From: Gibbula magus
Taxonomy: Eukaryota; Mollusca; Gastropoda; Trochida; Trochidae
Length of the DNA: 64,000 nt
Assembly: GCA_936450465.1 (NCBI GenBank)
Contig: OW388293.1
Coordinates: forward strand, 87,876,134 to 87,940,133
Direction: 5' to 3'
Shown: one piece after another, positions 8,019-57,140 of the stretch
Numbering within the stretch: the stretch's first letter is position 1
Layout of the letters: each line of letters opens with the position of its first letter
Position numbers and translations under genes: made by a program
The notes under the pieces: generated by a model
Database searches by the model: none
What the model was told of the DNA's origin: nothing
What the model saw: only the letters and a program-made list of their open reading frames with translations

Positions 8019-11000
8019 GTGAGGTTATCTCCCTTGTTGTTGGGTTACAGTACGTTGTCAGGTTATCTCCCTTGTTGTTGGGTTACAGTAAGTTGTCAGG
8101 TTATCTCCCTTGTTGTTGGGTTACAGTACGTTGTCAGGTTATCTCCCTTGTTGTTGGGTTACAGTACGTTGTCAGGTTATCTCCCTTGTTGGGTTACAGT
8201 ACGTTGTCAGGTTATCTCCCTTGTTGGGTTACAGTACGTTGTCAGGTTATCTCCCTTGTTGTTGGGTTACAGTACGTTGTCAGGTTATCTCCCTTGTTGT
8301 TGGGTTACAGTACGTTGTCAGGTTATCTCCCTTGTTGTTGGGTTACAGTACGTTGTCAGGTTATCTCCCTTGTTGTTGGGTTACAGTACGTTGTCAGGTT
8401 ATCTCCCTTGTTGTTGGGTTACAGTACGTTGTCAGGTTATCTCCCTTGTTGGGTTACAGTACGTTGTCAGGTTATCTCCCTTGTTGTTGGGTTACAGTAA
8501 GTTGTCAGGTTATCTCCCTTGTTGTTGGGTTACAGTACGTTGTCAGGTTATCTCCCTTGTTGTTGGGTTATAGTACGTTGTCAGGTTATCTCCCTTGTTG
8601 TTGGGGCAAAAATATCATAGATTTTCTTCTTTGACCTTGCAAGAAAAAAATACAAAGATCCATTTTGTAAAAGTAAAACAGTGTATGAAATGTGTTCACG
8701 TGTAGTTTATAAAAATCCAACATGCCAGCCGTAACCAGCAGCTATTTCCAATATCGAGTAGGAGATATTCACTTTCTCTGTTCTACCAACGTAGACAGAA
8801 GCGCGTGAGAATATCCGTCAGATCCTGGATGAGCTGGACGTGTGCGGTGTGGATATCGCGGTCAGAGTGAACAGCGTGAGCAGCGGACTGTTGGAAGAGG
8901 ATCTGAACGTGATCATGCAGGCGGGGAGGCTTCCCGACACCATCCTGCTGCCTAAAGTGGACTCCGTGGAGGATCTCATACTGGTCAGTGGTCAGTCAGT
9001 TAAAGTTAAATATTATGACTGAAAGTTAAATTTTGGAAATATCATCTCCCAAGACGTCATTGAAGAATATGACATCAGTCTTTTCCTTTATTGTTACGTC
9101 ATGTGATCAGTTGTTGGTTTTCTGGTGCGGCTAAGTGGGTACATGGGAAATTAATTATATAAACTCCTTGAGTGATTCATCATCATCTCCCATAGGTTAT
9201 TCAAGTCTTTTTTCCAAAGTAACCTCTGTTACAGGTAAAATGCTTTCAAGAAGACAAAAACTGAAAATATTTTTTTTTGTATAACATGACATATTATATG
9301 AATTACATTTGTAAAATGCCTTTGACCTTTGAAGTAACTGAGTCGATGTAAGTTAATGTAAGACATGATTTCATTGGAATAGAGTAGAGGGGAAAATTCC
9401 AGTCTGCTAGTAATGAGAAATATAGCCCGATTGTAACAGAGGTTAGGTGGGAAGAAATGACCTGAGCAACCTCTGTAGGTAGAGGATACATTGAATCACT
9501 AAGACAACAAGCAAAAAAGTGAGCGTGGCTCACTAATAACCCCGACTGTTAAAGTTTGACATTTTTATTTTACTTAAAGAGAGAGGTGTCTGCACACCTA
9601 AGGATTGATAAGCTATGACATGTATTTGCTAAGATTAAACTGTTTGTGAAAAGGGAAGGACAAGTCTCAATCTTCATGTAAAAAAGGTGGTTTAAGTAAA
9701 AATAGGAATAATAGTAACTTGAAAAGGTATCATAATACTCTACTGCTATTACCACTGATTTTGGAAATTAATCCATCATAATGATTCCCAAAATATAACC
9801 AGAAGAAATATAAAATAGTAAAATCAACAAGAACACAGCAGTAGCTTTTGATGAAAGTTACATGAAAAAGAAAATGATGAAGTCAACAAATCACAACACA
9901 GAAGTAGCTTCATTCATTCTAGCTCCGAATATGATGAAGTAAAAAAATATAAAAAATCGCCAAAAATTCCAAAATTCATCAAATCGTTTTACATTTTGCA
10001 ATGCACCTCTCCTAGTGGTGAAGAAGGCATGTGCCAAATTTTAAAAGAATGAGATGAATAGTTTTTCTGTTATCGATCGGACAAAAAATGCTCAGAATTT
10101 GAGTAAGTTAAAAATATAAAATTCGCAAAAAATTCACCAATAAGGTTTAAACTTCCCACTGCACCTCTCCTAGTGGTGAAGAAGACATGTACCAAATTTT
10201 AAAAGGATGAGATGAATTGTTTTTCTGTAATCTATCGAACAAAAATTGTCTTCGGACGGACGGACGGACAGACGGACAGACGGAATCATTGATATTACTA
10301 TATATACCCCCGACCTTTTTAGGTCGGGGGTATAATAAAAACCTGTCAATCACAGTTCCGTGAAAGTCTGTAGTGGATATTACAATATCACCAGCTTTTT
10401 GTATGTCCCAGTTCACGGATCGTCTGCAGAGGGCAACCAGAGGCCGAGAGAGTTACCTCCCTTACCTCTTGACGTATGTGGAGAGTGCAGCTGGCCTGAT
10501 GAACATGAAAGATGTGTTTCGGCGCGCCCGGGAGCTCTCTCTAGATGGGGTGTTTCATCATGATGGCGTTGTCTTTGGGTCAGACGACTTCTGTGCTGAT
10601 ATTGGTAAAAGGTGTTCTGCTGTTATATTTGCCAAAAAAGTATATATTTTCAGCCTAGTTCAGGAAAAAAACATAAGTTAAAGTTCATAAATCTGTTTGT
10701 TATGTGATGCAGGTGCAGTGCGGACGATAGATGCACGGGAGCTGACGTACGCGAGACAGAAGATTGTGATGGTGGCGAAAGCGTACAGACTCCAGGCAAT
10801 AGACATGGTCTTTATAGACATCAAGGGTATGCAGAGATGGCAGAAACTTTTAACTTTACCTTATTTTTACTGAATATACTGAAAACCTTCATGTTTGTGA
10901 AAAACAACATCCAGTGTGATTTTGGACATGGGTCAATAATCTCCTAAACAGTTACAGACAGCGGCTCACTGTGGACCCAGTGTTGGAAGGCCCCAGGTAG

Positions 11001-13977
11001 AGTTAGGGTTAGACGTAGGGTTAGTGATCTCCAAAACTGTTACAGACAGCGACTCACTGTGGACGCAGTGTTGGAAGGCCCCAGGAAGAGTTAGGGTTAG
11101 CGTAGGGTTAGTGATCTCCAAAACTGTTACAGACAGCGACTCACTGTGGACGCAGTGTTGGAAGGCCCCAGGTAGAGTTAGGGTTAGACGTAGGGTTAGT
11201 GATCTCCAAAACTGTTACAGACAGCGACTCACTGTGGACGCAGTGTTGGAAGGCCCCAGGAAGAGTTAGGGTTAGCGTAGGGTTAGTGATCTCCAAAACT
11301 GTTACAGACAGCGACTCACTGTGGACGCAGTGTTGGAAGGCCCCAGGAAGAGTTAGGGTTAGCGTAGGGTTAGTGATCTCCAAAACTGTTACAGACAGCG
11401 ACTCACTGTGGACGCAGTGTTGGAAGGCCCCAGGAAGAGTTAGGGTTAGCGTAGGGTTAGTGATCTCCTAAACTGTTACAGACAGCATCTCACTGTGGAC
11501 GCAGTGTTGGAAGGCCCCAGGTAGAGTTAGGGTTAGCGTAGGGTTAGTGATCTCCTAAACTGTTACAGACAGCGACTCACTGTGGACCAAGTGTTGGAAG
11601 GCCCCAGGAAGAGTTAGGGTTAGCGTAGGGTTAGTGATCTCCTAAACTGTTACAGACAGCGACTCACTGTGGACCCAGTGTTGGAAGGCCCCAGGAAGAG
11701 TTAGGGTTAGCGTAGGGTTAGTGATCTCCTAAACTGTTACAGACAGCATCTCACTGTGGACCCAGTGTTGGAAGGCCCCAGGAAGAGTTAGGGTTAGCGT
11801 AGGGTTAGTGATCTCCTAAAGTGTTACAGACAGCGACTCACTGTGGACCCAGTGTTGGAAGGCCCCAGGTAGAGTTAGGGTTAGACGTAGGGTTAGTGAT
11901 CTCCTAAACTGTTACAGACACTACTCACTGCGGACCCAGTGTTTGTAGGGCCCCAGGAAGAGTTAGGGTTAAACGTAGGGTTAGTGATCTCCTAAACTGT
12001 TACAGACAGCATCTCACTGTGGACCCAGTGTTGGAAGGCCCCAGGAAGAGTTAGGGTTAGCGTAGGGTTAGTGATCTCCTAAAGTGTTACAGACAGCGAC
12101 TCACTGTGGACCCAGTGTTGGAAGGCCCCAGGTAGAGTTAGGGTTAGACGTAGGGTTAGTGATCTCCTAAACTGTTACAGACACTACTCACTGCGGACCC
12201 AGTGTTTGTAGGGCCCCAGGAAGAGTTAGGGTTAAACGTAGGGTTAGTGATCTCCTAAACTGTTACAGACAGCGACTCACTGTGGACCCAGTGTTTGTAG
12301 GGCCCCAGGAAGAGTTGGGGTTAAACGTAGGGTTAGTGATCTCCTGAAATGTTACAGACAGCGACTCACTGCGGACCCAGTGTTTGTAGGGCCCAAGGAA
12401 GAGTTAGGGTTAGACGTAGAATTAATGATCTCCTAAACTGTTACAGACAGCGCCTCACTGTGGACCCAGTGTCTGGAAGGCCCCAGGTAGAATTAGGGTT
12501 AGACGTAGGGTTAGTGATCTCCAAAACTGTTACAGACAGCGACTCACTGTGGACCCAGTGTCTGGAGGGCCCCAGGTAGAGTTAGGGTTAGACGTAGGGT
12601 TAGTGATCTCCTAAACTGTTACAGACAAGGACTCACTGCGGACCCAGTGTTGGAAGGCCCCAGGTAGAGTTAGGGTTAGCGTAGGGTTAGTGATCTCCTA
12701 AACTGTTACAGACAGCGGCTCACTGCGGACCCAGTGTCTGGAAGGCCCCAGGTAGAGTTAGGGTTAGCGTAGGTTAGTGATCTCCTAAACTGTTACAGAC
12801 AGCGACTCACTGCGGACCCAGTGTTGAAAGGCCCCAGGTAGAATTAGGGTTAGACGTAGGGTTAATGATCTCCTAAACTGTTACAGACAGCGGCTCACTG
12901 CGGACCCAGTGTCTGGAGGGCCCCAGGTAGAGTTAGGGTTAGACGTAGGGTTAGTGATCTCCTAAACTGTTACAGACAAGGACTCACTGCGGACCCAGTG
13001 TTGGAAGGCCCCAGGTAGAGTTAGGGTTAGCGTAGGGTTAGTGATCTCCTAAACTGTTACAGACAGCGGCTCACTGCGGACCCAGTGTCTGGAAGGCCCC
13101 AGGTAGAGTTAGGGTTAGCGTAGGTTAGTGATCTCCTAAACTGTTACAGACAGCGACTCACTGCGGACCCAGTGTTGAAAGGCCCCAGGTAGAATTAGGG
13201 TTAGACGTAGGGTTAATGATCTCCTAAACTGTTACAGACAGCGGCTCACTGCGGACCCAGTGTTGGAAGGCCCCAGGTAGAGTTAGGGTTAGACGTAGGG
13301 TTAATGATCTCCTAAACTGTTATAGATAGTGACTCACTGCGGACCCAGTGTCTGGAGGGCGCCAGGAAGGGCTACACGGGTAAACAGGTAATCCACCCGG
13401 CCCAGATATCCATCGTCCGTGATGCCTTCACCCCGAGTGAGGAGAAGGTTGAGTGGGCCACTGAACTCGTCCTTGCCTTCGAGCAGCACCAGCAGTCCGG
13501 CAAGGTGAGGGGATCATTGGATATTTAGTTCAGTTGGTTAACAAATCGCACTATTGAAAGCATTTTGTTTCACAAATCTTTTACAAGTGGCATAAATCAA
13601 GCAAAAGCGAAAGCAGTGTTTTAAACTATAAATGTAACCCGCTCTGAGATTCGCTTACACATTAGTGCAGGTTATATTGTGTTGAGGTGATTAACTTTGT
13701 CAGCTATGATGGACGTATCTGTGTCAACAAAACCTTGGCCAGCAAATCATAATAAATCATGCAAAGAGTAAGGAACCTTTTGTTTAAGTTCTACTTGTTC
13801 TACATGTTATGCTGAGTGGGATCTATCAAGCTTGTTGTAATTTGCTGATCTACTTTTATCTTGTGAATCTTGCAGGGAGCGTTCACATTTCACGGCAGTA
13901 TGATTGACATGCCTTTGCTTCTCCAAGCCAAGAACATCCTAAAGATTGTACACAACATCAAGTCATCAAAGTCATAA
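7749..13977 (+). CDS. CLYBL: citramalyl-CoA lyase, mitochondrial (CLYBL family), six exons
   Basis: Six exons, 7749-8018, 8795-8983, 10412-10604, 10713-10826, 13326-13504 and 13876-13977, join with phases 0,0,1,1,0 into 348 residues, close to the usual length of about 340. The N terminus (about residues 1-45) is rich in Arg and Ser with few acids, as expected of a mitochondrial presequence. The HpcH/HpaI aldolase/citrate-lyase-beta fold follows: RRTVMYVPGHDLKKLRK and LECEDGVALNQK in exon 1, CoA and substrate loops through exon 2, the metal-site segment VVFGSDDFCADIG in exon 3, GKQVIHPAQI in exon 5, and the conserved GAFTFHGSMIDMP near the C terminus. The family cleaves (3S)-citramalyl-CoA to acetyl-CoA and pyruvate in mitochondria, part of itaconate/C5-dicarboxylate breakdown that protects the B12 pathway. 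The ATG at 7749 is the first in frame; an AG at 7741-7742 suggests an upstream 5'-UTR exon. Introns 1 and 4 consist largely of tandem arrays anchored on its splice sites. Confidence 0.93.
8019..8605 (+). repeat. 38-bp minisatellite in CLYBL intron 1, beginning at the 5' splice site
   Basis: About 16 copies of a 38-bp unit (GGTTATCTCCCTTGTTGTTG then GGTTACAGTACGTTGTCA); some copies lack one GTT and are 35 bp. The first copy begins at the intron's first base: the donor GTGAGGTTATCTCCC aligns with the repeat's GTCAGGTTATCTCCC. Each unit also contains TTGGGTTACAG, which resembles a weak 3' splice site. Copies are nearly identical. Confidence 0.95.
8795..8983 (+). CDS. CLYBL: CLYBL exon 2 (residues 91-153)
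   Basis: Acceptor CTACCAACGTAG, 63 codons, donor CTG|GTCAGT, phase 0 at both ends. Encodes TEARENIRQILDELD through the VRVNSVSSGLLEEDL and LPKVDSVEDL segments typical of the family. Confidence 0.92.
8984..10411 (+). other. CLYBL intron 2
   Basis: Mostly unique AT-rich DNA. It carries a paralogous pair of about 60-bp blocks (TGCACCTCTCCTAGTGGTGA at about 10002 and 10160), a (CGGA)n run at 10253-10284 and a strong hairpin at 10303-10334. Together these look like the tail of an unidentified dispersed element. Confidence 0.6.
9960..10340. repeat. dispersed-repeat tail: duplicated block, (CGGA)n and hairpin
   Basis: Two copies, about 158 bp apart, share CACCTCTCCTAGTGGTGAAG and GCCAAATTTTAAAA-like text. 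They are followed by (CGGACGGA)n and by a 14-bp perfect inverted repeat, TATACCCCCGACCT at 10303-10316 and its complement at 10321-10334 with a TTTT loop. The combination of a CGGA run and a polyC/polyG hairpin resembles a repeat end seen widely in marine invertebrate genomes; family assignment is from memory and unverified. Confidence 0.55.
10412..10604 (+). CDS. CLYBL: CLYBL exon 3 (residues 154-218)
   Basis: Acceptor TTTTTGTATGTCCCAG, donor ATTG|GTAAAA, 193 nt, enters phase 0 and leaves phase 1. Encodes LPYLLTYVESAAGLMNMKDV and the VVFGSDDFCADIG segment, whose acidic residues belong to the metal site in this family. Confidence 0.92.
10713..10826 (+). CDS. CLYBL: CLYBL exon 4 (residues 218-256)
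   Basis: Acceptor GTTATGTGATGCAG, donor AAGG|GTATGC, 114 nt. Encodes YARQKIVMVAKAYRLQAIDM and VFIDIK; the Asp codon at the end is split G|AT with the real exon 5 at 13326, which supports that acceptor. Confidence 0.9.
10945..13325 (+). repeat. 87/88-bp array of copied 3' splice site plus exon-5 start (about 27 copies)
   Basis: Each unit contains GTGATCTCCTAAACTGTTACAG, an acceptor, then about 45 bases of exon-5-like coding sequence (ACAGCGACTCACTGTGGACC, CAGTGTTGGAAGGCCCCAGG) and a spacer holding GTTAGGGTTAGCGTAGGG. The last unit runs into the genuine exon at 13326, where CTGTTATAG is followed by coding sequence reading DSLRTQCLEGARKGYTGK. The 87-bp copies stay in phase, and those with CTCCAAAAC instead of CTCCTAAAC remove the in-frame stop; hence peptides such as VTDSDSLWTQCWKAPGR. 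I interpret the array as an expanded intron/exon junction, not as coding exons. Confidence 0.93.
13326..13504 (+). CDS. CLYBL: CLYBL exon 5 (residues 256-315)
   Basis: Acceptor AACTGTTATAG, donor CAAG|GTGAGG, 179 nt. Encodes the LEGARKGYTGKQVIHPAQIS stretch and SEEKVEWATELVLAFEQHQQ. It differs from the array copies by LRTQCLEGARKG in place of LWTQCWKAPG, so only this copy retains the family consensus. Confidence 0.92.
13876..13977 (+). CDS. CLYBL: CLYBL exon 6 (residues 316-348) and stop
   Basis: Acceptor TTGTGAATCTTGCAG; encodes GAFTFHGSMIDMPLLLQAKN and a Lys-rich end, then TAA at 13975-13977. Directly after the stop, about 35 bp of the coding 3' end (ATTGTACACAACATCAAGTC) is duplicated at 13978-14012, outside the reading frame's use. 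Confidence 0.92.
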   Translation, partial: GAFTFHGSMIDMPLLLQAKNILKIVHNIKSSKS

Positions 13978-14039
13978 CATCCTCAAGATTGTACACAACA
14001 TCAAGTCATAAGTTATGTACAAAACTTTCGACACAGAGC

Positions 14040-15249: not shown

Positions 15250-15255
15250 AATAAA
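15250..15255 (+). terminator. AATAAA polyadenylation signal, probably CLYBL
   Basis: TTTGAATAAATGTTG lies about 1.27 kb after the stop codon, before the transposon nest starts at 15502. Position fits; usage is not shown by the sequence. Confidence 0.45.
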
Positions 15256-20936: not shown

Positions 20937-21036
20937 GAGCCGTTCCACTAACCAATCTTAGCCCTAAGATCAATCTTAGCCAATGATAGTCTTTACGATT
21001 GATCTTAAGTGCTAAGATCAGTTAGTGGAACGGCCC
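20937..21036. mobile_element. second foldback micro-element in the transposase
   Basis: An imperfect palindrome with ends GAGCCGTTCCACTAAC and GTTAGTGGAACGGCCC, flanked by CCAGG at 20932-20936 and 21037-21041. Removing it restores the frame. Its core (ATCTTAGCCCTAAGAT) resembles that of the 20716-20821 insert, so the two may belong to related families. Confidence 0.82.
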
Positions 21037-21928
21037 CCAGGAGGCCCTACGCCACAGGACCCATTTTGACGCAACTTCACTGTCACCAACGTCTGATATG
21101 GACCCGAAAACACGCAAGATGGAATCAGAATCGCTGGAATAACGTTGTCTTTAGTGACGAGTCACGTTACACACTTAGGTTTGCTGATGGCAGGGTGCGA
21201 GTGTGGCGTAGAACACGAGAACGACATGCACAGTGTTGTGTTCGTGAGGTGGACATATTTGGCGGCGGCAGCGTCATGGTTTGGGGATCTTTCTGTTCCA
21301 ATGGTCGTTCCCGATTGTTTACTGCCACACAATACAGGGACCAAGTTTTGACACCGGTCCTGATACCGTTCATGCAACAACATGGTCCAGGGCTGAGTTT
21401 TCAACATGTTAATGCCAAGTGCTCCGCACACATCGATTTTGACGCGCAATTTCTTGCGTAACGCCGATATCAACGTCATGGAGTGACCATCTCGTTCACC
21501 AGACCTCAATCCTATAGAACACATCTGGGATGAATTGGGAAGACGATTGAGGCAGCAAATCAACCAACCCAAGGCTCTGCAAGCTCTTGGACAGGAACTG
21601 GTCAACCAATGGCGGCGACTTCCGGTGCGGGTCTTCAGGGAGGTCTGCGGTCGATGAGACGACGTTGTGTGGCTGTGGTGGCTGTATGAAACGGTCACAC
21701 GCGTTATTGGCTTCAGAATGTGCCATGATCTGATGATGTGAAGTTCGTTTTGTCGGGTCACGTGACAGCAAGCGGTATTACGCAATAAAGTGATCCAGAA
21801 ATCTACTCATGTCAATCTATAATTCTTCTCAAATGATTTCCCTATCCTTACATACCAGGTTTATAGCCATGCACCAAGTATTCAATTTGTGAGGTCAAAT
21901 TTGAACAGTGTCAGGTTTCTAGTTACGC

Positions 21929-46200: not shown

Positions 46201-49200
46201 TATGTACCTACTTCTTCAGGCCGTTTAATGCAGTAACTGACACACAGTACATAGCACTATGACGTCACACAGGAACCTATGACGTCATAATGTACTTTGA
46301 CAACAATAGATGGTTATGATGTAAACACGATCATGTTTTGCCATTTAATTTTGGCGCATATTTATAAATGAAATGCGATTCTTTCAAAAGTAAATCATTA
46401 TCATTGTTGTAATTGAGTTTGTAAATCGGGAAAACTTTGAATTTGCCTTTACCACATTTATCTAAATGTTCACTGAGAGGGATAGTACTATTTCGGGGTT
46501 GATTAATGTGGGATCGATGTAGGTTCATTCTTCTTTTTAATTTTTTTTCTGTTTTCCCGATATACTTCTCATTACACCAAGAACACGTGATGACATACAT
46601 AACATTTTTCGTAACACAATTCATATTTTGTTTAACATCCTTCAACTATACTTTCACACGTGTGGCAACGAGAGTCTCCACATTTAGAGACCTTGGGAAC
46701 AACATCAATCGAGTCAAATCTAGATACAGTTAACATTTTGCGTAGGTTTTTGGGTTGCTTACGGCTGTTAATATTAAATAAAGTTGTATATATTAACAAT
46801 CTTTTTCATTTTTTGACTCAGACTTAGAATAGAAAGATAGCGCTTGACAATAGACATAGTGCTATCATGACTAGGATTGAAGGTAGATACAAGAGTGAGA
46901 TTATTCTGAGTATTCATGTCTTTATCCGTCTTAGATCTCAGCTGTTGTTGTTGCGTTTTTAACGCCTTTTGTATACTATCACGTATCAATTGGTCTGGAT
47001 AATTTTAGTTCACCAAGGCGAGTGATTTTATATATATATGATATAAGTATTGCTTATTTACTTTCATTCTGGTAACCAATTACAGTCACAGATCTAAATT
47101 CAATCTCCTCCATGCCCACAGGGTACACGAGTCGTACCTCCCGGACACCCACTCTCCCGAGGAACACTATGACTGTGGCTACGCAGACATGAAGACCCCG
47201 CCAAGCCGCAGCGGCCACGATCTGCAGTCTGGTTACAGGACCCCTCCCCAGAAGTCGGCCAGTCTCTCCGAGTTCCATGATCTGCCTAAAGTGAGCTCTC
47301 AGAGCGGTCGCACCGACATGCGACAGTGGCAGAGTCAGCAAAGAGACCAACAGTTCTACTCTCAGGTCAGTTCCACATTCAGCCCCACAGTCAGCTCCAC
47401 AGTCAGCTCCACATTCAGCCCCACATTCAGCCCCACAGTCAGCCCCACAGTCAGCTCCACAGTCAGCCCCACAGTCAGCCCCACAGTCAGCTCCACAGTC
47501 AGCTCCACAGTCAGCCCCACATTCAGCCCCACAGTCAGCCCCACAGTCAGCCCCACAGTCAGCTCCACAGTCAGCCCCACAGTCAGCCCCACATTCAGCC
47601 CCACAGTCAGCTCCACAGTCAGCTCCACAGTCAGCCCCACATTCAGCCCCACAGTCAGCCCCACAGTCAGCCCCACAGTCAGCTCCACAGTCAGCCCAAC
47701 AGTCAGCTCCACAGTCAGCCCCACATTCAGCCCCACAGTCAGCCCCACATTCAGCCCCACAGTCAGCTCCACAGTCAGCCCCACAGTCAGCTCCACAGTC
47801 AGCCCAACAGTCAGCTCCACAGTCAGCCCCACAGTCAGCTCCACAGTCAGCCCCACAGTCAGCTCCACAGTCAGCCCCACAGTTAGCCCCACAGTCAGCC
47901 CCACAGTCAGCCCCACATTCAGCCCCACATTCAGCCCCACAGTCAGCTCCACATTCAGCCCCACAGTCAGCTCCACAGTCAGCTCCACAGTCAGCCCCAC
48001 ATTCAGCCCCACAGTCAGCCCCACAGTCAGCCCCACAGTCAGCTCCACAGTCAGCCCAACAGTCAGCTCCACAGTCAGCCCCACAGTCAGCCCCACATTC
48101 AGCCCCACAGTCAGCCCCACATTCAGCCCCACAGTCAGCCCCACATTCAGCCCCACAGTCAGCTCCACATTCAGCCCCACAGTCAGCTCCACAGTCAGCC
48201 CCACAGTCAGCTCCACAGTCAGCCCAACAGTCAGCTCCACAGTCAGCCCAACAGTCAGCTCCACAGTCAGCCCAACAGTCAGCTCCACAGTCAGCTCCAC
48301 AGTCAGCCCCACAGTCAGCTCCACAGTCAGCCCAACAGTCAGCTCCACAGTCAGCCCAACAGTCAGCTCCACAGTCAGCCCAACAGTCAGCCCCACAGTC
48401 AGCTCCACAGTCAGCCCAACAGTCAGCTCCACAGTCAGCCCAACAGTCAGCTCCACAGTCAGCCCAACAGTCAGCTCCACAGTCAGCCCAACAGTCAGCT
48501 CCACAGTCAGCCCCACAGTCAGCCCCACAGTCAGCTCCACAGTCAGCCCAACAGTCAGCTCCACAGTCAGCCCAACAGTCAGCTCCACAGTCAGCTCCAC
48601 AGTCAGCCCAACAGTCAGCTCCACAGTCAGCCCAACAGTCAGCCCCACAGTCAGCCCCACAGTCAGCTCCACAGTCAGCCCCACATTCAGCCCCACAGTC
48701 AGCCCCACAGTCAGCCCCACAGTCAGCTCCACAGTCAGCCCCACAGTCAGCCCCACATTCAGCCCCACAGTCAGCTCCACAGTCAGCTCCACAGTCAGCC
48801 CCACATTCAGCCCCACAGTCAGCCCCACAGTCAGCCCCACAGTCAGCTCCACAGTCAGCCCAACAGTCAGCTCCACAGTCAGCCCCACAGTCAGCCCCAC
48901 ATTCAGCCCCACAGTCAGCCCCACATTCAGCCCCACAGTCAGCTCCACAGTCAGCCCCACAGTCAGCTCCACAGTCAGCCCAACAGTCAGCTCCACAGTC
49001 AGCCCCACAGTCAGCTCCACAGTCAGCCCCACAGTCAGCTCCACAGTCAGCCCCACAGTCAGCCCCACAGTCAGCTCCACAGTCAGCCCCACATTCAGCC
49101 CCACATTCAGCCCCACAGTCAGCTCCACATTCAGCCCCACAGTCAGCTCCACAGTCAGCTCCACAGTCAGCCCCACATTCAGCCCCACAGTCAGCCCCAC

Positions 49201-52200
49201 AGTCAGCCCCACAGTCAGCTCCACAGTCAGCCCAACAGTCAGCTCCACAGTCAGCCCCACAGTCAGCCCCACATTCAGCCCCACAGTCAGCCCCACATTC
49301 AGCCCCACAGTCAGCTCCACAGTCAGCCCCACAGTCAGCTCCACAGTCAGCCCAACAGTCAGCTCCACAGTCAGTCCCACATTCAGCTCCACAGTCAGTC
49401 GAGGAGTCTGATACTGAGTCTCTTATGTTAGCCTTTCACTCATCGTGTATTGTAGTGTTAGACAGCTGTGGTATAAGTGAAATACACTTGAAAGCTTATT
49501 CTTAAACCATCTCACCTCACCCTACCTCATGAACTCAACTGTAGTGTTATTGACAGAAGATTGTTGTAATGTAATGTGAATGTTACTGACAGATATTGTG
49601 TGTGTGTGTGAGTGTGTGAGGCTTGACTGAATGTTACTGACAGATATTGTGTGTGTGAGTGAGTGTGTGAGGCTTGACTGAATGTTACTGACAGATATTG
49701 TGTGTGTGAGTGAGTATGTGAGGCTTGACTGAATGTTACTGACAGATATTGTGTGTGTGAGTGAGTGTGTGAGGCTTGACTGAATGTTACTGACAGATAT
49801 TGTGTGTGTGAGTGAGTGTGTGAGGCTTGACTGAATGTTACTGACAGATATTGTGTGTGTGAGTGAGTGTGTGAGGCTTGACTGAATGTTACTGACAGAT
49901 ATTGTGTGTGTGAGTGAGTGTGTGAGGCTTGACTGAATGTTACTGACAGATATTGTGTGTGTGAGTGAGTGAGTGAGTGAGGCTTGACGCTTGACTGAAT
50001 GTTGTACTGTCACTTGATTACATCAATGTTATTGACTGAGATTGTGTGAATGTAGACTCGATACTCTAAGTGTGGAGTGTACTAATAGCCAGGCTGTATT
50101 GGTCCCCAGGGAATGTACGGGGGCAGTAAGACGAGCCAGAAGTCTGGAGGCAGTTTGGAAGGGGTGATGCAGCAGCTGGGAGTACGGGGGGAGGAGGAGG
50201 ATACGACTCAGTGGGACCCCGTCCGACGAGCGGCAGACAGCATCATCCAGGAGAAGAACATGATCATTCACAAGTCAGTCAAACACGTTGATCACACATT
50301 CCTCTCATTCACAAGTCAGTCAAACACGTTGATCACACATTCCTCTCATTCACAAGTCAGTCAAACACGCAACTTCCCAGTGCAAGGCATAACTCTTGCC
50401 AGTCTCCATTACTGGCTGATTAACGCCTTGCAGTATTTCCTTAAAAGTCTGTGTTTAGAAATCAAGGCTCGCTATGCATTTCTGGTGCAGCGATTCACTA
50501 TCTTGACACAACAAAGCGAGGGAAATACTGCAAGGCTTAAATCAGCCAGTAATGCAGACTGGCAAGAGTTATGCCTTGCATTGGAAGTTGTCAAGCACAT
50601 TGATCACACATCCTAAACAAGCCAGTCAAACACATTGATCACACATCCTAAACAAGCCAGTCAAACACATTGATCACACATCCTAAACAAGCCAGTCAAA
50701 CACATTGATCACACATTCCTAAACAAGTCAGTCAAACACATTGATCACACATTCCTAAACAAGTCAGTCAAACACATTGATCACACATCCTACACAAGCC
50801 AGTCAAACACATTGATCACCCATCCTAAACAAGCCAGTCAATAGGGGTGAAACGGTTTACCGCGGTGTATTCGTACCGCGGTATTTATTGACGGTTCGGT
50901 ATACCGAAAAATTGCTTTGAAAAAAATGTACCGTTCGGTTTTGGTAAAGTTCGTTTTTATCCACTACACTCGTGCATATCCCTGTCAAAAGCACTAAAAA
51001 TGTCACTCAAGTGTCAGTACAAATTATCATATTCTATTAAATTTCATTCTAAACTAGTCCAAAGTTCACAAGAAATCCTTACGACTTACGTAGTCGTAGA
51101 TCGAACTTCCGTGTTATGACTCGAGTGGACATGTCAAAAAAGTCAAAACAGCGATATGAATAAACTATTTGACAGAAAGTTACCGTATATTACAAGGTAT
51201 AAATTATCAAGTTGATTCTAAAAATTAGGGGTTCAAAGATTTGAATCGACTTTCAGATTTAAACTTCAAGGCAGGTGAAAATGTAACAATATGTTTGTGT
51301 TGAGTTTTCATTTGGAAAACCTTTTCTATATTTAGAACTAATTGAGATGTAACTACCTTTGTGATTGGTCAAAAAATTACGCGTCATTGGGTTCTCGTAC
51401 TACAGTCATACCGATTGGTTGACATGTGTCACGTGACACATGTGGCATGAGATACATTTCTTTATCGAATGTTTGACATGTCGACTGTTTACTACAAAGT
51501 TTTGACGGGTTACATTTGAGTGTTTACACCGGGTACTTTATTCAAATTCATGAACAAACACATAAATTTAAAAAATAACCGACTATTGCACAAGTTTCTG
51601 TGAGTAAAATATTGCTAAATTAATTTCCAAATCTAGAAGCAGCGACATCTTGCTAGTCGGTAAGTTAGTGATGTTTTTATTAATCATTTATACTACAGTT
51701 TAAATAGCTAAAGAACGCAATTGTTTCATAATTATTGAATATAAATTGAGAAATCAAATAAACATCGGCTGAAGTAATGAATTTCTTGACAAAAGAAGTT
51801 TGATAATTTTCCCGTTTTATATGCTAGACTACGTACACTATGCATTGAGCTTTGTATCTAATTTTCTGATTGGCTAAGAAAAGGGAAGTCCCGTAGTTAA
51901 CCAATGACAAGGCTAATAACAAACAATAGAGTTTCTGATGTTGACTCCTGCTTACACTTGTTCTTTCGATTTACGGAGAGGAGAATGATATGTATATGCT
52001 TAAAACAATAGTTAAATAGACACAACAAGTCAACAGTTGTACTTTTTATTTTTAAGATATTACTTACAGTGTTCAAGCCAGGATTTTAAAATGTGGGGCC
52101 CAAGGGCCCCCTCCTTATAAAAAAGAGGGGCCATCTGGATATTTATGGGGCCTTTAAATATGTTCAATAAAAGATTTCAAAGATAACAGTCTTGTTTTAT

Positions 52201-55200
52201 TTTATCATGTTTAGTAGAGCTGAGTATCACAAGAAATTTCATGATACTACTAGTATCAAGATACATTAGAAATTCAAGAACACTGACCAATTATAGTTAA
52301 ATAACCAAAAAAACCAGTCCCATATGAAGCTGAAAAATGGTTTTCCAAACATATTGGTCAACAAAAAGTCAAATTTGAAATGAGAAGCGTATTATATGTG
52401 TGTACATTATATGTACTATTGGAAACTGGTTGCTGTGAAAATAGTTTGCATAATTCCATAAATTGTTAATCATCACAAATTTGACAGTATTGTAAAAAAT
52501 CTAAGGTCAAAACACATTCAATGACTGGTTGAAAAGTTTAGCAAAAATGTTGCCGATATGTCAACAATGTTACATGACATGACATCATTGTGAATAACAA
52601 ATTACAATTTGGAATAACAATTATCAAAACCAATCTTCGTTATTGATTTTTAAAAATATATTTTCAAAGATATTCAGCATTCTGACAACATTATTAATTA
52701 CTAATAATTAGTCTAAATGGTTAACGAAAACAAAACTAAATCATCTAATATCGAATGTAACTCGATTATCACAAGTCAATACTTTGAGATTTAATTAGCT
52801 ACGAATACGAATACGAATGCTTTCGTTAATATTCTTTAAATAAAATTCATAATAATATTTAATTTATATTTCATGAAATCAGTTTTGAGATAAAATAAAA
52901 TGAAATAATATGCCGTAATGTCCGTAAAGTTAAATATCGCCACTTCTCGCCGAGTGGGTAGGTTATTTATAGCACAGCACATGTGTTTTCATTGCTGGCA
53001 TCGTCGTTATTAAACACTGTAACATCCATGTTTTGAATTAATTATTTCATAAATACATATTAATCTATCATGTTAAGCGATTTATGAATAATTTAAAGGA
53101 TATATGACTAAAAGTTATATCGATATTATATCGACTTTGTTTCGTTTCGAACCTTCGCTTCAATTGTTTCGTAAACAGAGGCTGTTCCGTGCCCCTCCCT
53201 CGCATAACATTAATACCAATCAGCAAGCTCACTTCCTTAGATACCGATGAGGCTAAATGGAACAGCCAAATATCAAAATAGTAAGGATGTCAGAAATTAA
53301 CGAGACATTGCGAATGATAAGTGATAAACTTCCGGGTTTCGTTTCGATATTTAATGATGTGAGTTTTATTTCAAATGATAAACTGTTGTTTTCAAAGACA
53401 AGTGCACACTTGCTTTAAGAAACTAATTCAATGCGGCCTTGGGGCGCATACAGGTGAATATTTTTGCGTCAGAACCAAATACTATGCGTGAATCCCGCAA
53501 TCCCGCAGCCTGGCTTGAACCCTGACTTATCACAAGCAAGCAATTAACTTTAAGCTTGACCTTGTATTTTACTTGCTCCGGGAGTATAGCAATGAAACAT
53601 TTTCACAGCAGTTTAATATAAATAACAAAAGTTATGGCTATACACAGTAATAAACATTCCTTCATATATTAAAAACAAAATAAGAACAACGTAATAATTA
53701 CTTAATGAAATTTAATATTACTGATTTTCTTGTGTTCAAGATTTATTGAATGTTGTTATTGAATTTGTTGAATGTGATTTCAAATTGTTATTTTACTGTC
53801 TAGTCATTTTAGATGAAATTACAAATAAGAATTTATGGCACATGCAAAGCCCAATTGAACCTTTTTATTCTCAGTGTGTGATGAGTCAATTTGAATACCA
53901 GATGATTTGAAGTGCTTAGTGTTCTTTGAGTGTCCAGGGCTTAATTTAGCTCTCTTTTGAATTATTTGAATGTTTTCCTGTTAACTATTTCCACAATTAA
54001 AATTATCTGTGCAGTTCATCTGTTATTTTCATTGTTGAGGAGTGGTATTGAACTTTTAAAGAACCGAACCGAAAAATATCGAACCGAGAGCTCTGTACCG
54101 CAATACGCACCGAACCGTGGCATAGGCGTACCGTTTCACCCCTACCAGTCAAACACATTGATCACACATCCTAAACAAGTCCGTCAAACACATTGATCTC
54201 ACATCCTAAACAAGTCAGTCAAACACATTGATCACACATTCCTAAACAAGTCAAACACATTGATCACACCTACCTAAACAAGTCAGTCAAACACATTGAT
54301 CTCACATCCTAAACAAGTCAGTCAAACACATTGATCACACATTCCTAAACAAGTCAGTCAAATACATTGATCTCACATCCTATACAAGTCAGTCAAACAC
54401 ATTGATCACACAATTCTAAACAAGTCAGTCAAACACATTGATCTCACATCCTATACAAGTCAATCAAACACATTTATTACACATCCTAAACAAGTCAGTC
54501 AAACACATTGATCACACATCCTAAACAAGTCAGTCAAACACATTGATCACACATCCTAAACAAGTCCGTCAAACACATTGATCTCACATCCTAAACAAGT
54601 CAGTCAAGCACATTGATCACACATTCCTATTCCTAAACAAGTCAGTCAAACACATTGATCTCACATCCTAAACAAGTCAGTCAAACACATTGATCACACA
54701 TTCCTAAACAAGCCAGTCAAACACCTTGATCACATCCTAAACAAGTCAAACACATTGATCACACATCCTAAACAAGTCAGTCAAACACATTGATCACACA
54801 TCCTAAACAAGCCAGTCAAACGCATTGATCACACATCCTAAACAAGCCAGTCAAACACATTGATCACACATTCCTAAACAAGTCAGTCAAGCACATTGAT
54901 CACACATTCCTAAACAAGTCAGTCAAACACATTGATCACACATTCCTAAACAAGTCAAACACATTGATCACACATTCCTTAACAAGTCAGTCAAACAAAT
55001 TGATCTCACATCCTAAACAAGTCAGTCAAACACATTGATCACACATTCCTAAACAAGTCAGTCAAACACATTGATCACACATCCTAAACAAGTCAGTCAA
55101 ACACATTGATCACACATTCCTAAACAAGTCAGTCAAACACATTGATCACACATCCTAAACAAGTCAGTCAAACACATTGATCACACATCCTAAACAAGTC

Positions 55201-56383
55201 AGTCAAACACATTGATCACACATCCTAAACAAGTCAGTCAAACACATTGATCACACATTCCTAAACAAGTCAGTCAAACACATTGATCACACATACCTAA
55301 ACAAGTCAGTCAAACAAATTGATCTCACATCCTAAACAAGTCAGTCAAACACATTGATCACACATTCCTAAACAAGTCTGTCAAACACATTGATCTCACA
55401 TCCTAAACAAGCCAGTCAAACACATTGATCACACATCCTAAACAAGTCAGTCAAACACATTGATCTCACATCCTATACAAGTCAGTCAAACACATTGATC
55501 ACACATCCTAAACAAGTCAGTCAAACACATTGATCACACATCCTAAACAAGTCAGTCAAACGCATTGATCACACATCCTAAACAAGTCAGTCAAACACAT
55601 TGATCACACATTCCTAAACAAGTCTGTCAAACACATTGATCACCCATCCTAAACAAGTCAGTCAAACACATTGATCACACATTCCTAAACAAGTCTGTCA
55701 AACACATTGATCTCACATCCTAAACAAGTCCGTCAAACACATTGATCACATATCCTAAACAAGTCAGTCAAGCACATTGATCACACATTCCTAAACAAGT
55801 CAAACACATTGATCACACATACCTAAACAAGTCAGTCAAACAAATTGATCTCACATCCTAAACAAGTCAGTCAAACACATTGATCACACATTCCTAAACA
55901 AGTCTGTCAAACACATTGATCACACATCCTAAACAAGTCAGTCAAACACATTGATCTCACATCCTATACAAGTCAGTCAAACACATTGATCACACATCCT
56001 AAACAAGCCAGTCAAACACATTGATCACACATTCCTAAACAAGTCAGTCAAACACATTGATCACACATTCCTAAACAAGTCTGTCAAACATGTTGATCAC
56101 ACATTCCTCTCATTCACAAGTCAGTCAAACACATTGATCACACATTCCTAAACAAGTCAGTCAAACACAATGATCACACATTCCTAACCTTGGTGTAATC
56201 TCTACTTTGTAAAAAAATTTGAACTATCTGTTTTGTTGCAACAATGAAATGTAGTTTCTGTTAATCAGGCTGAAGAACAAGATATCAGTACTAGAAGAGG
56301 ACCTGAGTATGTACGAGAACAAGTTGCGCAGCGCCATCATCAGCAAGGAGGACCGCGATGATGTCATGCACCTCAAGATTCAG
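34227..56383 (+). CDS. coiled-coil protein of unknown identity, six exons (3' end not seen)
   Basis: Exons 34227-34287, 35304-35339, 36983-37208, 47122-47365, 50110-50273 and 56269-56383 join with phases 1,1,2,0,2 and leave phase 0 at a donor, giving 282 residues with no terminus. The ATG at 34227 follows an upstream stop-rich leader with a (CAGA)n run. The first about 190 residues are Ser, Gln, Pro and Tyr rich and look disordered (GWRDPKHLDSGQTLVPSPVV, YADMKTPPSRSGHDLQSGYR). From about residue 225 a heptad-like region begins (AADSIIQEKNMIIHK, LKNKISVLEEDLSMYENKLR), indicating a coiled coil. The layout, a disordered N terminus then coiled coil, is reminiscent of centrosomal CEP85-type proteins, but this is recall, not alignment. 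Introns are dominated by minisatellites and transposons. Confidence 0.72.
34547..35020. mobile_element. 474-bp TIR element (MITE) with 10-bp target duplication
   Basis: CTCTTCCCACAGAGGTTACT at 34551 and AGTAACCTCTGTGGAAAGAG ending at about 35018 are inverted with one mismatch over 25 bp. GCTATTGTGA flanks the element at 34537-34546 and 35021-35030. A 10-bp duplication would suit Mutator-like or related superfamilies. No coding capacity. It lies in intron 1 of the unknown gene. Confidence 0.82.
35150..35306 (+). repeat. acceptor-anchored tandem repeat in intron 1 (about 4 copies)
   Basis: Units of roughly 40-45 bp reading GCTATTGTGTTGTTTGTTGT then TTCAGATTAAGCGGTG. The last copy is the real 3' splice site, TTGTTGTTTCAG|ATTACC, so each earlier copy (TTTCAGATTA or TTTCAAATTA) carries the polypyrimidine tract, a candidate AG and the first exon bases. 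Confidence 0.88.
35304..35339 (+). CDS. unknown coiled-coil gene, exon 2 (36-nt microexon)
   Basis: Acceptor TTGTTGTTTCAG, donor TTCAG|GTCAGT; encodes YQKMLQTSQYS with split codons either side, phase 1 to phase 1. Confidence 0.7.
35390..35530. repeat. about 50-bp tandem repeat, 3 copies
   Basis: CACACGTAACTCTAACATAA then CTGTTCAAGTGT occurs three times, with alternating TGTTACACTT and ACTGACACTT spacers. Confidence 0.88.
35585..36147. repeat. 22-bp minisatellite (about 25 copies)
   Basis: Unit ACATCTAAACACTGAAATCA GA. Variants (AACACAGAAATC, AACAGTGAAAACAGAGCTTC) recur at intervals, showing higher-order duplication. Lies in intron 2 of the unknown gene. Confidence 0.95.
36355..36600 (-). 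pseudogene. fossil Tc1-like transposase fragment
   Basis: The minus strand reads LQDDNAKLQCARIVNDFLIQ, matching the second catalytic Asp motif of Tc1 transposases, and after a shift PDAAPIELAWDEL, matching the SPDLNPIEHLW-type motif with its Glu. Frames are broken and no inverted ends were found, so it is an old remnant in intron 2. Confidence 0.78.
36983..37208 (+). CDS. unknown coiled-coil gene, exon 3 (residues 33-108)
   Basis: Acceptor TTTATGCTGCAG, donor CTACAG|GTTTGT, 226 nt, phase 1 to phase 2. Encodes SPNKLGSHAYLPSKYGLVAG and SQFSDPRLGERAVQYSSRGG. Higher GC and even codon use than its surroundings support coding. Confidence 0.78.
37291..37383. repeat. 23-bp inverted repeat
   Basis: TTTATTGCAGGAGTGCGACG at 37291 and its complement ending at 37383 pair with two mismatches over 23 bp around a 47-nt spacer; a possible small MITE. 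Confidence 0.75.
38367..40321 (+). pseudogene. DIRS ORF1, gag-like, one frameshift
   Basis: The first part has paired Cys/His motifs (CSGCSVRLPPADKHDKCLKC, CNVCLDF) and a Lys-rich segment; after a one-base shift near 38828 (GGGAAAATT) the frame at 38882-40321 continues through an acidic Asp-rich stretch to a basic Gly/Arg tail (RGGKQARGGKSSNRPFRGG). The start is uncertain: no good in-frame ATG was found and the sequence opens from about 38360; a TTTTTCAG just upstream could even be a splice acceptor. Total about 650 residues. The shift suggests this copy lacks full-length protein unless it is a sequencing error. Confidence 0.72.
40204..42435 (+). CDS. DIRS reverse transcriptase/RNase H
   Basis: 743-codon open frame overlapping the gag end by about 117 bp; its first residues have no convincing ATG, so translation may start by frameshift or at an internal codon. 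Reverse transcriptase: YFIVTKKDGGFRPILNLKYL, SSIDLKDAYLHVPMHPEF, LPFGISTAPRVFTKLM and catalytic YLDDWLV (about residue 275). RNase H: VQTDASLSGWGGVLG, LELKAVRLVF, MDNQTAMSYIL and NVRADALSRR. The C-terminal VDLFASEMNNQTPVYCS and DAFALEW segment is characteristic of DIRS-like elements. No stops; catalytic residues are intact. Confidence 0.92.
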   Translation: MDQTAPLPGPETKGRQAGTRGKVFQQAFSGGPETQSGFLTPPVPEVSPKIPAARELPETGVHCLQPNIPVGGRLKRFLPAWSKVTDNPWVLSTLRDGHLPRWKVEPPVFSGIRYTPVPSVPEKAEILRSELRALLQKSAIEVVPPGQEQSGYYSTYFIVTKKDGGFRPILNLKYLNLKIEVPSFKMETLRSVIASVEANEWLSSIDLKDAYLHVPMHPEFKKYLRFAFDGTCYQFTVLPFGISTAPRVFTKLMLIPAQVARARGRFCHPYLDDWLVRALSQALNQAATMEIINLLVSLGWIINLKKSDLKPSQDQIFLGARFQTDLKTVSLAPDRVLKVQRATLLFLESHSHTARKWLQLLGFMAATVDVVYRARLRMRPVQQALASLWSHSESYEKQLETPGWLSPHLLWWTSLENLARGISLVTPVPSCTVQTDASLSGWGGVLGPHSASGLWSQAEASLHINVLELKAVRLVFERFQQRLRHQVVCLEMDNQTAMSYILKQGGTVSPVLLQESWEFLLWCDKFDITVLPVYLPGVDNVRADALSRRILAPHEWMLDPEIFATISRLFGSFQVDLFASEMNNQTPVYCSRLPDPRAVAADAFALEWTDRVLWAFPPVPLISKVLSQLAVQPARLLVLLTPLWIAQSWFPLVLRFLVSPPVLLPCRPGLLAQEGKPHPKPEVQWVAWPLSGIASKRTVFLHELQTQYWLRGGIRQTFSTRIDGPVMRAGVEVEGCQIPFLRL
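42255..43334 (+). CDS. DIRS tyrosine recombinase
   Basis: From ATG 42255 to the stop at 43334, 359 residues, overlapping the reverse-transcriptase frame by about 180 bp in another frame. The N-terminal SAM-like core-binding half reads STNVQYEDRWACYARWCRGR and STVRGYSTAISAFHIP. The catalytic half keeps Arg (VTSGRRVGDIHAM), the HxxR box (KAHSVRAVATSKAF) and the Tyr nucleophile (FIRHYQLDKHS). These enzymes insert a circular DNA intermediate without target duplication. The frame is open upstream to 40080 only because of overlap with the GC-rich reverse-transcriptase gene. Confidence 0.92.
   Translation: MGGLASIRNRLQEDGIPARVADTILASRRDSTNVQYEDRWACYARWCRGRGLPDPFSTSLVAVLEFLQSRLDAGLAASTVRGYSTAISAFHIPVDGALLGAHPLVQRFLAGVDRIRPPVRRISPSWDLSIVLDWLSGPKFGDLASLSLQLLTWKTAFLVAVTSGRRVGDIHAMSSDPELTVFHRDRVSIRLPDSYRPKVDHSFHITAPIELPALHKPAASGSVSSRPHFLDVRRTLKKYLSRTATVRRDKQLFCCYGGASPGAPASKQTISRWIVSAIVLAYIHRGMSPPEGLKAHSVRAVATSKAFAAALPIEEICSAAIWSRPSTFIRHYQLDKHSRERARFGQTVLSSGQSHNSSS
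43264..44767 (+). repeat. 750-bp tandem duplication of the DIRS 3' region
   Basis: 43264-44013 is repeated at 44018-44767 with an offset of 754 bp and only a few differences (GAGCGTGCTC/GAGCTTGCTC; CCCAGGACTC/CCCTGGACTC). Both copies carry a 19-base G run, the internal complementary region and part of the right terminal repeat. Identity this high means recent duplication or an assembly error. Confidence 0.92.
43762..43850. repeat. DIRS internal complementary region (first copy; second at 44516-44604)
   Basis: GTACCCCAAGGAGGATCCCT followed by the right-end complement and AGGATCCTCCTTGGGGTA; also self-complementary across the CCTGCAGAGGTTGCAG centre. Used as the template to regenerate the element ends during DIRS replication. 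Confidence 0.85.
44878..45720. other. right part of the interrupted TIR element
   Basis: AT-rich, with TGTCCGAACC-type motifs at several points and no gene. A 60-codon minus frame at 45065-45247 is unsupported. Confidence 0.55.
45721..45992. repeat. 27-bp minisatellite derived from a TIR end (10 copies)
   Basis: Unit CAGTTTGCCCTACCAATTGA ACTCAGT, 27 bp and almost perfectly conserved. The first copy is the last bases of the TIR element (GTTTGCCCTA), so the array grew from a transposon/flank junction. The open frame in it is a period artefact. Confidence 0.93.
46130..46995 (-). pseudogene. Penelope-like element remnant with GIY-YIG endonuclease
   Basis: Minus strand, from the 3' side of 46995: TFNPSHDSTMSIVKRYLSIL and RKQPKNLRKMLTVSRF (the region after the reverse transcriptase), CGDSRCHTCESI, then after a frameshift the GIY-YIG domain NVMYVITCSWCNEKYIGKTE, KLKRRMNLHRSHI and KESHFIYKYAPKLNGK. 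In Penelope-like elements this endonuclease makes the nick used for priming. CCTGAAGAAGTAGG...GAAAACGTTAGCC downstream is a familiar tail motif. No reverse transcriptase remains. Confidence 0.82.
47122..47365 (+). CDS. unknown coiled-coil gene, exon 4 (residues 108-189)
   Basis: Acceptor CCATGCCCACAG, donor CTCTCAG|GTCAGT, 244 nt, phase 2 to 0. Encodes HSPEEHYDCGYADMKTPPSR and SSQSGRTDMRQWQSQQRDQQ. The frame remains open for another 682 codons through the following array. Confidence 0.8.
47366..49400 (+). repeat. 12-bp minisatellite beginning at the exon 4 donor (about 170 copies)
   Basis: Units of 12 bp: CCCACAGTCAGC, TCCACAGTCAGC, CCAACAGTCAGC and CCCACATTCAGC. The array starts at the intron's first bases, GTCAGTTCCACATTCAGC, so every unit contains a CAGTCAGC reminiscent of the donor CAG|GTCAG. 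Units recur in long identical blocks (higher-order repeats). In the upstream exon's frame it reads (S/P)T(V/F)S tetrapeptides to a stop at 49411; the minus strand is also open for 676 codons. I favour intron. Confidence 0.94.
49445..49520 (+). repeat. diverged copy of a dispersed repeat tail
   Basis: GTATAAGTGAAATACACTTG then CTCACCTCACC resembles 57993-58048 (ATATAAGTGAAATACTCTTG, GCGGCGTTAAACCCAAACTC). Such tails end common molluscan SINEs, by recall. Confidence 0.55.
49570..49985. repeat. 51-bp minisatellite (about 8 copies)
   Basis: Unit ATGTTACTGACAGATATTGT then GTGTGTGAGTGAGTGTGTGA GGCTTGACTGA, 51 bp, with a TG/GA-rich core. It lies in intron 4 and is not adjacent to a splice site. The minus open frame (SLTHSLTHTISVSNIQS repeated) reflects the 51-bp period. 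Confidence 0.93.
50110..50273 (+). CDS. unknown coiled-coil gene, exon 5 (residues 190-244)
   Basis: Acceptor ATTGGTCCCCAG, donor CACAA|GTCAGT, 164 nt, phase 0 to 2. Encodes GSLEGVMQQLGVRGEEEDTT and RRAADSIIQEKNMIIH, the start of the coiled coil. Confidence 0.8.
50371..50589. mobile_element. 219-bp MITE with about 68-bp inverted repeats in the array
   Basis: AACTTCCCAGTGCAAGGCAT at 50371 and ATGCCTTGCATTGGAAGTT ending 50589 are the ends of arms that pair at roughly nine in ten bases. Flanking GTCAAACAC and GTCAAGCAC could be a 9-bp duplication but also belong to the array unit. The ~80-nt centre is unique. Confidence 0.85.
50842..54144. mobile_element. 3.3-kb hAT-type element with 8-bp target duplication
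   Basis: Ends TAGGGGTGAAACGGT (50842) and ACCGTTTCACCCCTA (54144) are inverted; CCAGTCAA lies on both sides (50834-50841, 54145-54152). An 8-bp duplication and such ends are hallmarks of hAT elements. Subterminal GGTATACCGAA/AACCGAACCG repeats occur at both ends. The interior is AT-rich with no transposase, so it is non-autonomous or decayed. It split the intron 5 minisatellite cleanly, so the array is older than the insertion. Confidence 0.92.
52067..53524. mobile_element. nested 1.46-kb TIR element inside the hAT element
   Basis: CAGTGTTCAAGCCAGG at 52067 and CCTGGCTTGAACCCTG ending 53524 are inverted with one mismatch; ACTTA occurs on both sides. CAGTG ends again suggest hAT. GGGGCCCAAGGGCCCC just inside the left end is palindromic. 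No transposase seen. Confidence 0.72.
56269..56383 (+). CDS. unknown coiled-coil gene, exon 6 (residues 244-282)
   Basis: Acceptor TTCTGTTAATCAG, donor ATTCAG|GTTGGT, 115 nt. Encodes LKNKISVLEEDLSMYENKLR and SKEDRDDVMHLKIQ, a continuous amphipathic helix. The next exon is not in the window, so the gene runs off the right edge. Confidence 0.8.
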
Positions 56384-57140
56384 GTTGGTGACTTGATGAT
56401 CTATCTCACTGTGTTGGTGACTTGATGATCCATCTCACTGTGTTGGTGACTTGATGATCTATCTCACTGTGTTGGTGACTTGATGATCTATCTCACTGTG
56501 TTGGTGACTTGATGATCTATCTCACTGTGTCGGTGACTTGATGATCCATCTCACTGTGTTGGTGACTTGATGATCTATCTCACTGTGTTGGTGACTTGAT
56601 GATCCATCTCACTGTGTTAGTGACTTGATGATCTATCTCACTGTGTTGGTGACTTGATGATCTATCTCACTGTGTTGGTGACTTGATGATCTATCTCACT
56701 GTGTTGGTGACTTGATGATCTATATCACTGTGTTGGTGACTTGATGATCTATCTCACTGTGTTGGTGACTTGATGATCTATCTCACTGTGTTGGTGACTT
56801 GATGATCTATCTCACTGTGTTGGTGACTTGATGATCTCACTGTGTTCACTGTGTTGGTGACTTGATGATCTATCTCACTGTGTTGGTGACTTGATGATCT
56901 ATCTCACTCTGTTGGTGACTTGATGATCTCACTGTGTTGGTGACTTGATGATCTCACTGTATTGGTGACTTGATGATCTATCTCACTGTGTTGGTGACTT
57001 GATGATCTATCTCACTGTGTTGGTGACTTGATGATCTATCTCACTGTGTTGGTGACTTGATGATCTATCTCACTGTGTTGGTGACTTGATGATCTATCTC
57101 ACTGTGTTGGTGACTTGATGATCTATCTCACTATGTTGGT
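56384..57140 (+). repeat. 29-bp minisatellite beginning at the exon 6 donor (about 26 copies)
   Basis: Unit GTTGGTGACTTGATGATCTA TCTCACTGT, 29 bp. The first unit is the 5' splice site itself, CAG|GTTGGTGACTTG. A few units lack CTAT. Confidence 0.95.

Follow-up and report, generated by a model that had tools for sequence, protein, structure and literature searches.

Tandem arrays at exon/intron boundaries of two gastropod genes resemble the "mirage" minisatellites of amphioxus

We analyzed a 64-kb stretch of gastropod DNA (the window) that holds CLYBL, encoding the mitochondrial citramalyl-CoA lyase (gene A), and exons of a second gene, gene B; all exons and arrays described below are given on the + strand. 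The coding exons of CLYBL, mapped by reading frame and GT/AG sites, lie at 7749-8018 (the first, with the donor AAG|GTGAGG), 8795-8983, 10412-10604, 10713-10826, 13326-13504 (exon 5, from whose first 42 bp an 87-bp array apparently derives) and 13876-13977 (the last). These six exons join to an intact frame of 348 aa, and the full-length alignment of the joined protein with gastropod proteins supports the predicted splice sites. Exon 1 has a match in the solved CLYBL chain 5vxc_A, and among the best 120 of 1758 matches the closest proteins are those of Haliotis cracherodii (70% over 100%), H. rubra (79% over 84%) and Littorina saxatilis (69% over 93%). A gastropod host, perhaps a vetigastropod, is therefore most likely; amphioxus, considered at first, was rejected, as the named proteins among these 120 include no Branchiostoma. 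A search of viral_contigs with the CLYBL alignment found 0 loci of relatives.

Four exons of gene B, at 35304-35339 (36 bp, donor CAG|GTCAGT), 47122-47365 (CAG|GTCAGT), 50110-50273 (CAA|GTCAGT, within the stretch matched by relatives) and 56269-56383 (CAG|GTTGGT), also join in frame. The encoded protein looks coiled-coil-like by eye, and our guess is that it might be CEP85-like. Its joined exons had 0 matches in Pfam and 0 in the PDB (both at E up to 1); its relatives P0001 and P0002 had nothing above the curated cut-off in Pfam, and P0001 had one PDB match at E 0.62. Protein searches with gene B, whose limits on length bias them toward frames that read on, returned six relatives (P0001, P0002, P0123, P0124, P0125 and P0126), and a search of genome_contigs with the gene B alignment found 0 loci of relatives.

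Ten introns could be defined from the reading frame and GT/AG sites (five in each gene, two of them cut off), one fewer than the original prediction had counted, and the predicted coding junctions visible in the window number 18 (9 donors and 9 acceptors). Six of these carry a tandem array, at four donors and two acceptors, and TRF detected all six arrays that had been predicted. In CLYBL intron 1, a 38-bp array (8019-8605) starts from the first intron base; its TRF edge lies 3 bp inside the intron at the 8018/8019 donor, or at 0 when copy 1 is taken to include its mismatched initial GTG (this copy reads GTGAGG and the other 15 GTCAGG). Two gene B arrays, with units of 12 bp (47366-49398; spare donors mostly ACA|GTCAGC) and 29 bp (56384-57141), also start from the first intron base and have TRF edges 0 bp from the junctions at 47365 and 56383. 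The 41-bp array at 50264-50369 lies across its gene B donor (50273/50274): it begins 10 bp within the exon, not at the first intron base as had been claimed for all four donor arrays, and its unit includes the final 10 bases of the exon. Further blocks of this unit family lie at 50590-50841, in units of 35-36 bp with a reduced exon-derived tail, and at 54146-56187, where one unit near the 3' end (tail at 56110) retains this tail. Both acceptor arrays run into the exon, as predicted, by 4 bp at 35303/35304 (35147-35307, units of 38-43 bp, ending at the acceptor of the short gene B exon) and by 41 bp at 13325/13326 (10939-13366, units of 87 bp, most of CLYBL intron 4). The unit lengths of 38, 12, 29, 41 (35-36 further in), 38-43 and 87 bp agreed with the original prediction, as did the difference of the units in both sequence and length; they do not form one repeat family. 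At the remaining 12 junctions the nearest array edge was 32 to 378 bp off, the 32-bp case being the far side of the 36-bp exon.

A window this rich in minisatellites might have some of them abutting exons by chance, and we shuffled array positions against this possibility. The 36 TRF rows were merged by hand into 25 arrays, dropping other-period rows of one array; the shuffles used 24 of them (the array at 57224-64000 was left out), or 15 when confined to the gene spans. An array edge lay within 5 bp at 4 of the 18 junctions, compared with a mean of 0.17 in uniform shuffles and 0.28 and 0.35 in two gene-span shuffles, and 0 of 5000, 1500 and 1500 shuffles, respectively, reached 4. Within this window, then, the claim that chance placement rarely hits the junction base was borne out. 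A looser count of junctions either spanned or with an edge within 5 bp gave 6, a number that chance supplies readily under uniform shuffling (mean 4.65; 36% reach 6); because random arrays cover exons, this version of the count is uninformative. When arrays were kept to the gene spans and allowed no more than 45 bp of exon overlap, the looser count had a mean of 1.9 and 5 of 1500 shuffles reached 6. Shuffling within each intron gave 6 of 18 at 5 bp against a mean of 1.1 (0 of 20000), and this result is weaker than it appears because three arrays were trimmed at the exon edge and are flush by construction; one intron is also nearly filled by its array. Since two arrays are also built from the sequence of their own exon, and relatives of gene B show repeats at junctions of that gene (both described below), we consider chance a very unlikely explanation.

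One case of exon-derived sequence is the 87-bp unit of CLYBL intron 4, which consists of the 3' end of the intron, the acceptor and about 42 bp resembling the start of exon 5. We compared units with their exons by local score against mononucleotide shuffles of the exon flanks (n=300); the 87-bp unit scored 52 against the first 42 bp of exon 5, which 0 of 300 shuffles reached. The exon start encodes DSDSLRTQCLEGARKGY and aligns with six other gastropod sequences. Because this protein reading is conserved, we take the exon as the source and the repeats as the copies. Likeness to the exon rises along the 27 spare copies toward the exon, from 33 to 37 of 42 bases (Spearman 0.69, with a nominal P of 7e-5, neighbouring copies being non-independent), and over the first 42 bases two three-unit runs each reappear in unchanged order (units 9-11 and 12-14; units 19-21 and 23-25). 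Long repeats are hard to assemble, and an assembly artefact could be suspected; we regard it as extremely improbable, as the units differ, the three-unit runs recur in order, the exon-similarity gradient is itself ordered, and misassembly would not pick out splice junctions.

A second boundary-spanning unit is that of the 50274 array, whose 41 bp end with the last 10 bases of the exon (3 of 300 shuffles scored as high). We parsed its family into 51 stretches, 37 of which measure 35-36 bp; 48 of the 51 are without the exon tail TCATTCACAA and end in TAAACAA or a one-base variant. The tail is kept at 50264-50346 and at 56110, near the far end of the family, where an 11-mer of the 10 exon bases and the intron G recurs, and other DNA lies between the blocks of the family. 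The picture is of a family that lost its exon part in the interior and kept it at both ends. At 35303 the first 20 exon bases had 10, 11 and 12 matches to the three parsed units, rising toward the exon; 12 or more matches occurred in 0.07% of sampled 20-mers of the window, and leaving aside the shared ATTA, 8 of 16 matches occurred in 1.9%. These matches are suggestive of an exon origin of the 35303 array.

For the three flush donor arrays we detected no significant exon match with the same test. The 8019 unit gave no exon-derived sequence (256 of 300 shuffles scored as high), nor did the 56384 unit (58 of 300; foreign flanks scored 14, 14 and 13 against 12 for its own), and the match of the 47366 unit was not significant (23 of 300, with one foreign flank tying). 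An exon origin of the 47366 unit was also considered from a 12-of-16 match at a shift of 17, and was rejected because this match is equalled at 28% of random places. Of the processes that the original prediction had proposed, junction-spanning duplication therefore has direct evidence at 13325/13326 and 50273/50274, joined by a relative's protein at the donor aligning with 56383/56384 (see below), weak evidence at 35303/35304, no trace in the 8019 and 56384 arrays themselves, and a non-significant match at 47366.

These flush arrays, with edges at 0, 0 and 3 bp and no significant exon remnant, are what one would expect if duplication were seeded at the splice site itself, by co-transcriptional spliceosome binding, R-loops, breaks or template switching at AG|GT; such arrays would start at intron base 1 and would never have held exon sequence. 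The excess of edges within 5 bp of a junction (4 of 18, against 0.17 to 0.35 in shuffles) fits this as well. Yet two arrays do hold exon bases, and in one family most units are now without them. The sense-strand GC skew also divides the arrays: it is +0.19, +0.19, +0.49 and +0.16 in four, which are G-rich, and -0.50 and -0.50 in two strongly C-rich arrays, which is unlike R-loops. With this mixed skew, R-loops as the common cause, another suggestion of the original prediction, are not supported; they could still account for single arrays. Moreover, the 3' end of CLYBL including the stop codon is imperfectly duplicated directly downstream (TRF 13933-14002, +; sequence compared by eye), a similar style of duplication where there is no splice site; the process thus need not be restricted to AG|GT. 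The stop-codon duplication suggests that the coding boundary matters, beyond the splice signal alone. Taking these points together, we regard splice-site-directed seeding as a possible but doubtful account. By eye, the duplication at 13933-14002 puts a copy of the last CLYBL codons into the 3' flank.

The original prediction had also assigned a copy of the splice-site core to every unit, which proved correct for most units and for all 16 of the 8019 array. The 47366 array has 141 GTCAG in about 169 units, 23 of the 26 units at 56384 carry an exact GTTGGTGACTT, and the four parsed sites at 35303, the true one included, read CAG twice and CAA twice; some units of these three arrays are thus without the core. 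At 13325, TTA[CT]AGA was present in 28 of 28 sites including the true one, the same motif having also defined the units; the spare copies have TTACAG and the true acceptor TTATAG. Fifteen of the 27 CLYBL spare copies have CAGGTA after the exon-like part, and each of these therefore resembles an exon of 39-40 bp.

The spare donors of the three flush arrays are without G at -1, reading GTT|GTCAGG (15), ACA|GTCAGC (138) and TGT|GTTGGT (21; TCT| also occurs). The donor consensus is CAG|GTAAGT. On the nine positions of this consensus the spare donors match at 4, and the true donors at 6, 8 and 7 (8019, 47366 and 56384, respectively). These weak spare donors are modest evidence, because at 50274 spare and true donors tie with 7 matches each, and a further two of the true CLYBL donors reach only 5. 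They bear on a functional explanation, in which the arrays would be kept as an aid to the splicing of long introns or as regulators of exon choice, in the manner of a C. elegans minisatellite near alternative exons that the available text of PMC4039745 links to splicing decisions. The poorer consensus match of the spare donors in three arrays fits avoidance over use, and the unit sequences differ between introns; we consider a function of this kind very improbable. The 12-bp array at 47366 was also considered as coding sequence and rejected: its openness is uninformative, as any stop-free 12-bp unit is open, and the flanking exons join in frame without it. This array (47366-49398) is open across its full length in several frames, and the use of a spare donor would presumably add residues in frame.

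The relatives of gene B allowed its junctions to be compared at the protein level. P0001 and P0002 are 95% identical and were counted as one case. In P0001 the protein continues beyond the exon end AEIVQQKVK, and a 15-residue repeat like VGWYDMVEIVWQKVM follows, as it does in P0002, at a site that aligns with the gene B donor 56383/56384; across the last 11 residues of the four full repeat units of P0001, 25 of 44 positions agree with the exon tail, a count that 0 of 20000 column shuffles reached. In P0123 the exon ends in a similar way and no repeat follows. In P0125 an eight-residue repeat and a second YSKGVRQV immediately precede the region that corresponds, by eye, to the exon at 50110; on an alternative reading this could be an in-frame exon duplication in the transcript. 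P0124 and P0126 show no repeat in the stretch that each covers. A repeat at a junction was thus seen in 2 of 5 cases among these protein sequences, that of P0125 by eye. The gene B donor after KIQ aligns with a break in P0001 and P0123, and P0125 and P0126 either stop or diverge close to the 50273 donor, which P0001 and P0123 read across (partly by eye). From these alignments, one or more gene B introns look older than the array at their edge and are apparently common to the relatives.

Boundary-spanning units are present at two junctions, and the exon tail occurs at both ends of one family and is missing from most units between. We propose that the arrays are probably mirage-type minisatellites, which would arise by boundary-spanning duplication tolerated by splicing, growth within the intron and loss of the exon part. 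A short tandem duplication would first cross an exon/intron boundary. Splicing would keep to the copy that joins the intact exon, and the additional copy, bringing along some exon sequence and a spare site, would become part of the intron and do little harm. The array would then expand within the intron by unequal exchange or slippage; coding selection would hold the exon side, and in the intronic copies whatever derives from the exon, the bases just ahead of a spare donor included, would decay. The decayed form of the unit could spread through the array, with a repeat starting at the first intron base as the end state. Because no significant exon sequence was found at 8019, 56384 and 47366, we infer the seeding step for half of the arrays. 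The preference for the copy next to the intact exon and the selection against spare sites are likewise presumed. Tolerance at boundaries is not enough by itself to account for the 4 edges found within 5 bp, against fewer than 0.4 in the shuffles; with six of 18 junctions affected, either duplication is commoner near exon edges or arrays are longer-lasting there.

Minisatellites of this structure are known from amphioxus as "mirages", a name for which the paper cited is reportedly Canestro et al. 2002 in NAR; this precedent is absent from the original prediction. In the available text of PMC3087553 and PMC3902484 they are described for the Adh3, globin, TnC and PGBD5 genes as minisatellite-like duplications of exon/intron boundaries. 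As in the gastropod, those passages report tandem duplications across both 5' and 3' boundaries, units of 10-160 bp and AG/GT signals in many units. In the amphioxus globin mirage, as far as these passages describe it, the interior is homogenised and the cluster boundaries are excluded from homogenisation, a behaviour seen here at 13325 and in the 50274 family. Based on this agreement in structure, both boundary types, unit sizes, spare signals and edge behaviour, we file the snail arrays as presumptive mirages in another phylum. The host group described in these sources is Cephalochordata, whereas ours is a gastropod, a difference of range and not of anatomy; and no mollusc mirage was found in the literature searched, in which subscription papers are thinly covered. 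The gastropod arrays also differ from those of amphioxus in affecting six of 18 junctions of two genes in one 64-kb window, in reaching 2.4 kb as single arrays and 5.9 kb as the gene B family, and in that the loss of the exon part can be traced within one family.

The arrays also recall the Rogers model of intron gain by tandem duplication, which is said to be treated in two further papers besides the source named next. In the available text of PMC3087553 this model likewise has a tandem duplication of sequence with AG and GT, and that source already puts in print for amphioxus the idea of repeats feeding intron gain, which the original prediction had raised as well. Unlike in the model so described, our data demonstrate no new intron, and at least one array edges a gene B intron apparently shared with relatives. 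Among gastropods, the minisatellite in intron 3 of an abalone TSSK1-like gene (27-bp unit, variable copy number; PMC6905558) is likewise intronic and tandem; unlike our arrays, it has no splice-junction placement in the text examined of that paper.

The arrays at six of 18 junctions, together with the array of a relative at a homologous donor, suggest a general route of intron lengthening. They also provide two natural tests: one of the spliceosome's choice of the true site when as many as 27 near-copies are present, the other of whether exon edges undergo more duplication or merely make it easier to see. A broader and decidedly tentative idea is that duplication targeted at splice junctions, or more generally at coding boundaries, acts across animals as a main source of intron growth; it would start at exon edges, erode the exon part, extend introns to many kilobases and recur independently at junctions of the same genes.

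The window contains further repeats and mobile elements. A 12-bp array with higher-order periods of 48, 72 and 120 occupies 57224-64000, reaching the window end; it starts 83 bp beyond the end of the 29-bp array, and both apparently lie in one intron. An array of CCCTAA-like (telomere-like) words and spacer lies at 4584-5589, and TTAGGG-like words also occur within the 87-bp unit at 10939-13366. Between the two genes are two reverse transcriptase frames of 982 and 350 aa (16334-19282 and 23936-24988; RVT_1 above the cut-off), and a frame at 21009-21461 that, judging by its translation, we take to resemble a Tc1-type transposase. The gene B intron at 35340-47121 harbours a retroelement (37820-44650). 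Its frame at 40117-42435 has a reverse transcriptase match above and an RNase H-like match below the Pfam cut-off; the longer frame at 40077-43334 had no Pfam match, and we presume from its appearance that it ends in a tyrosine recombinase of the DIRS/Ngaro type. An identical frame of 132 aa is present at 43497 and 44251 within the same element. At 10250-10340, a CGGA-rich run is followed by TATACCCCCGACC...GGTCGGGGGTATA, a sequence known from mollusc introns.
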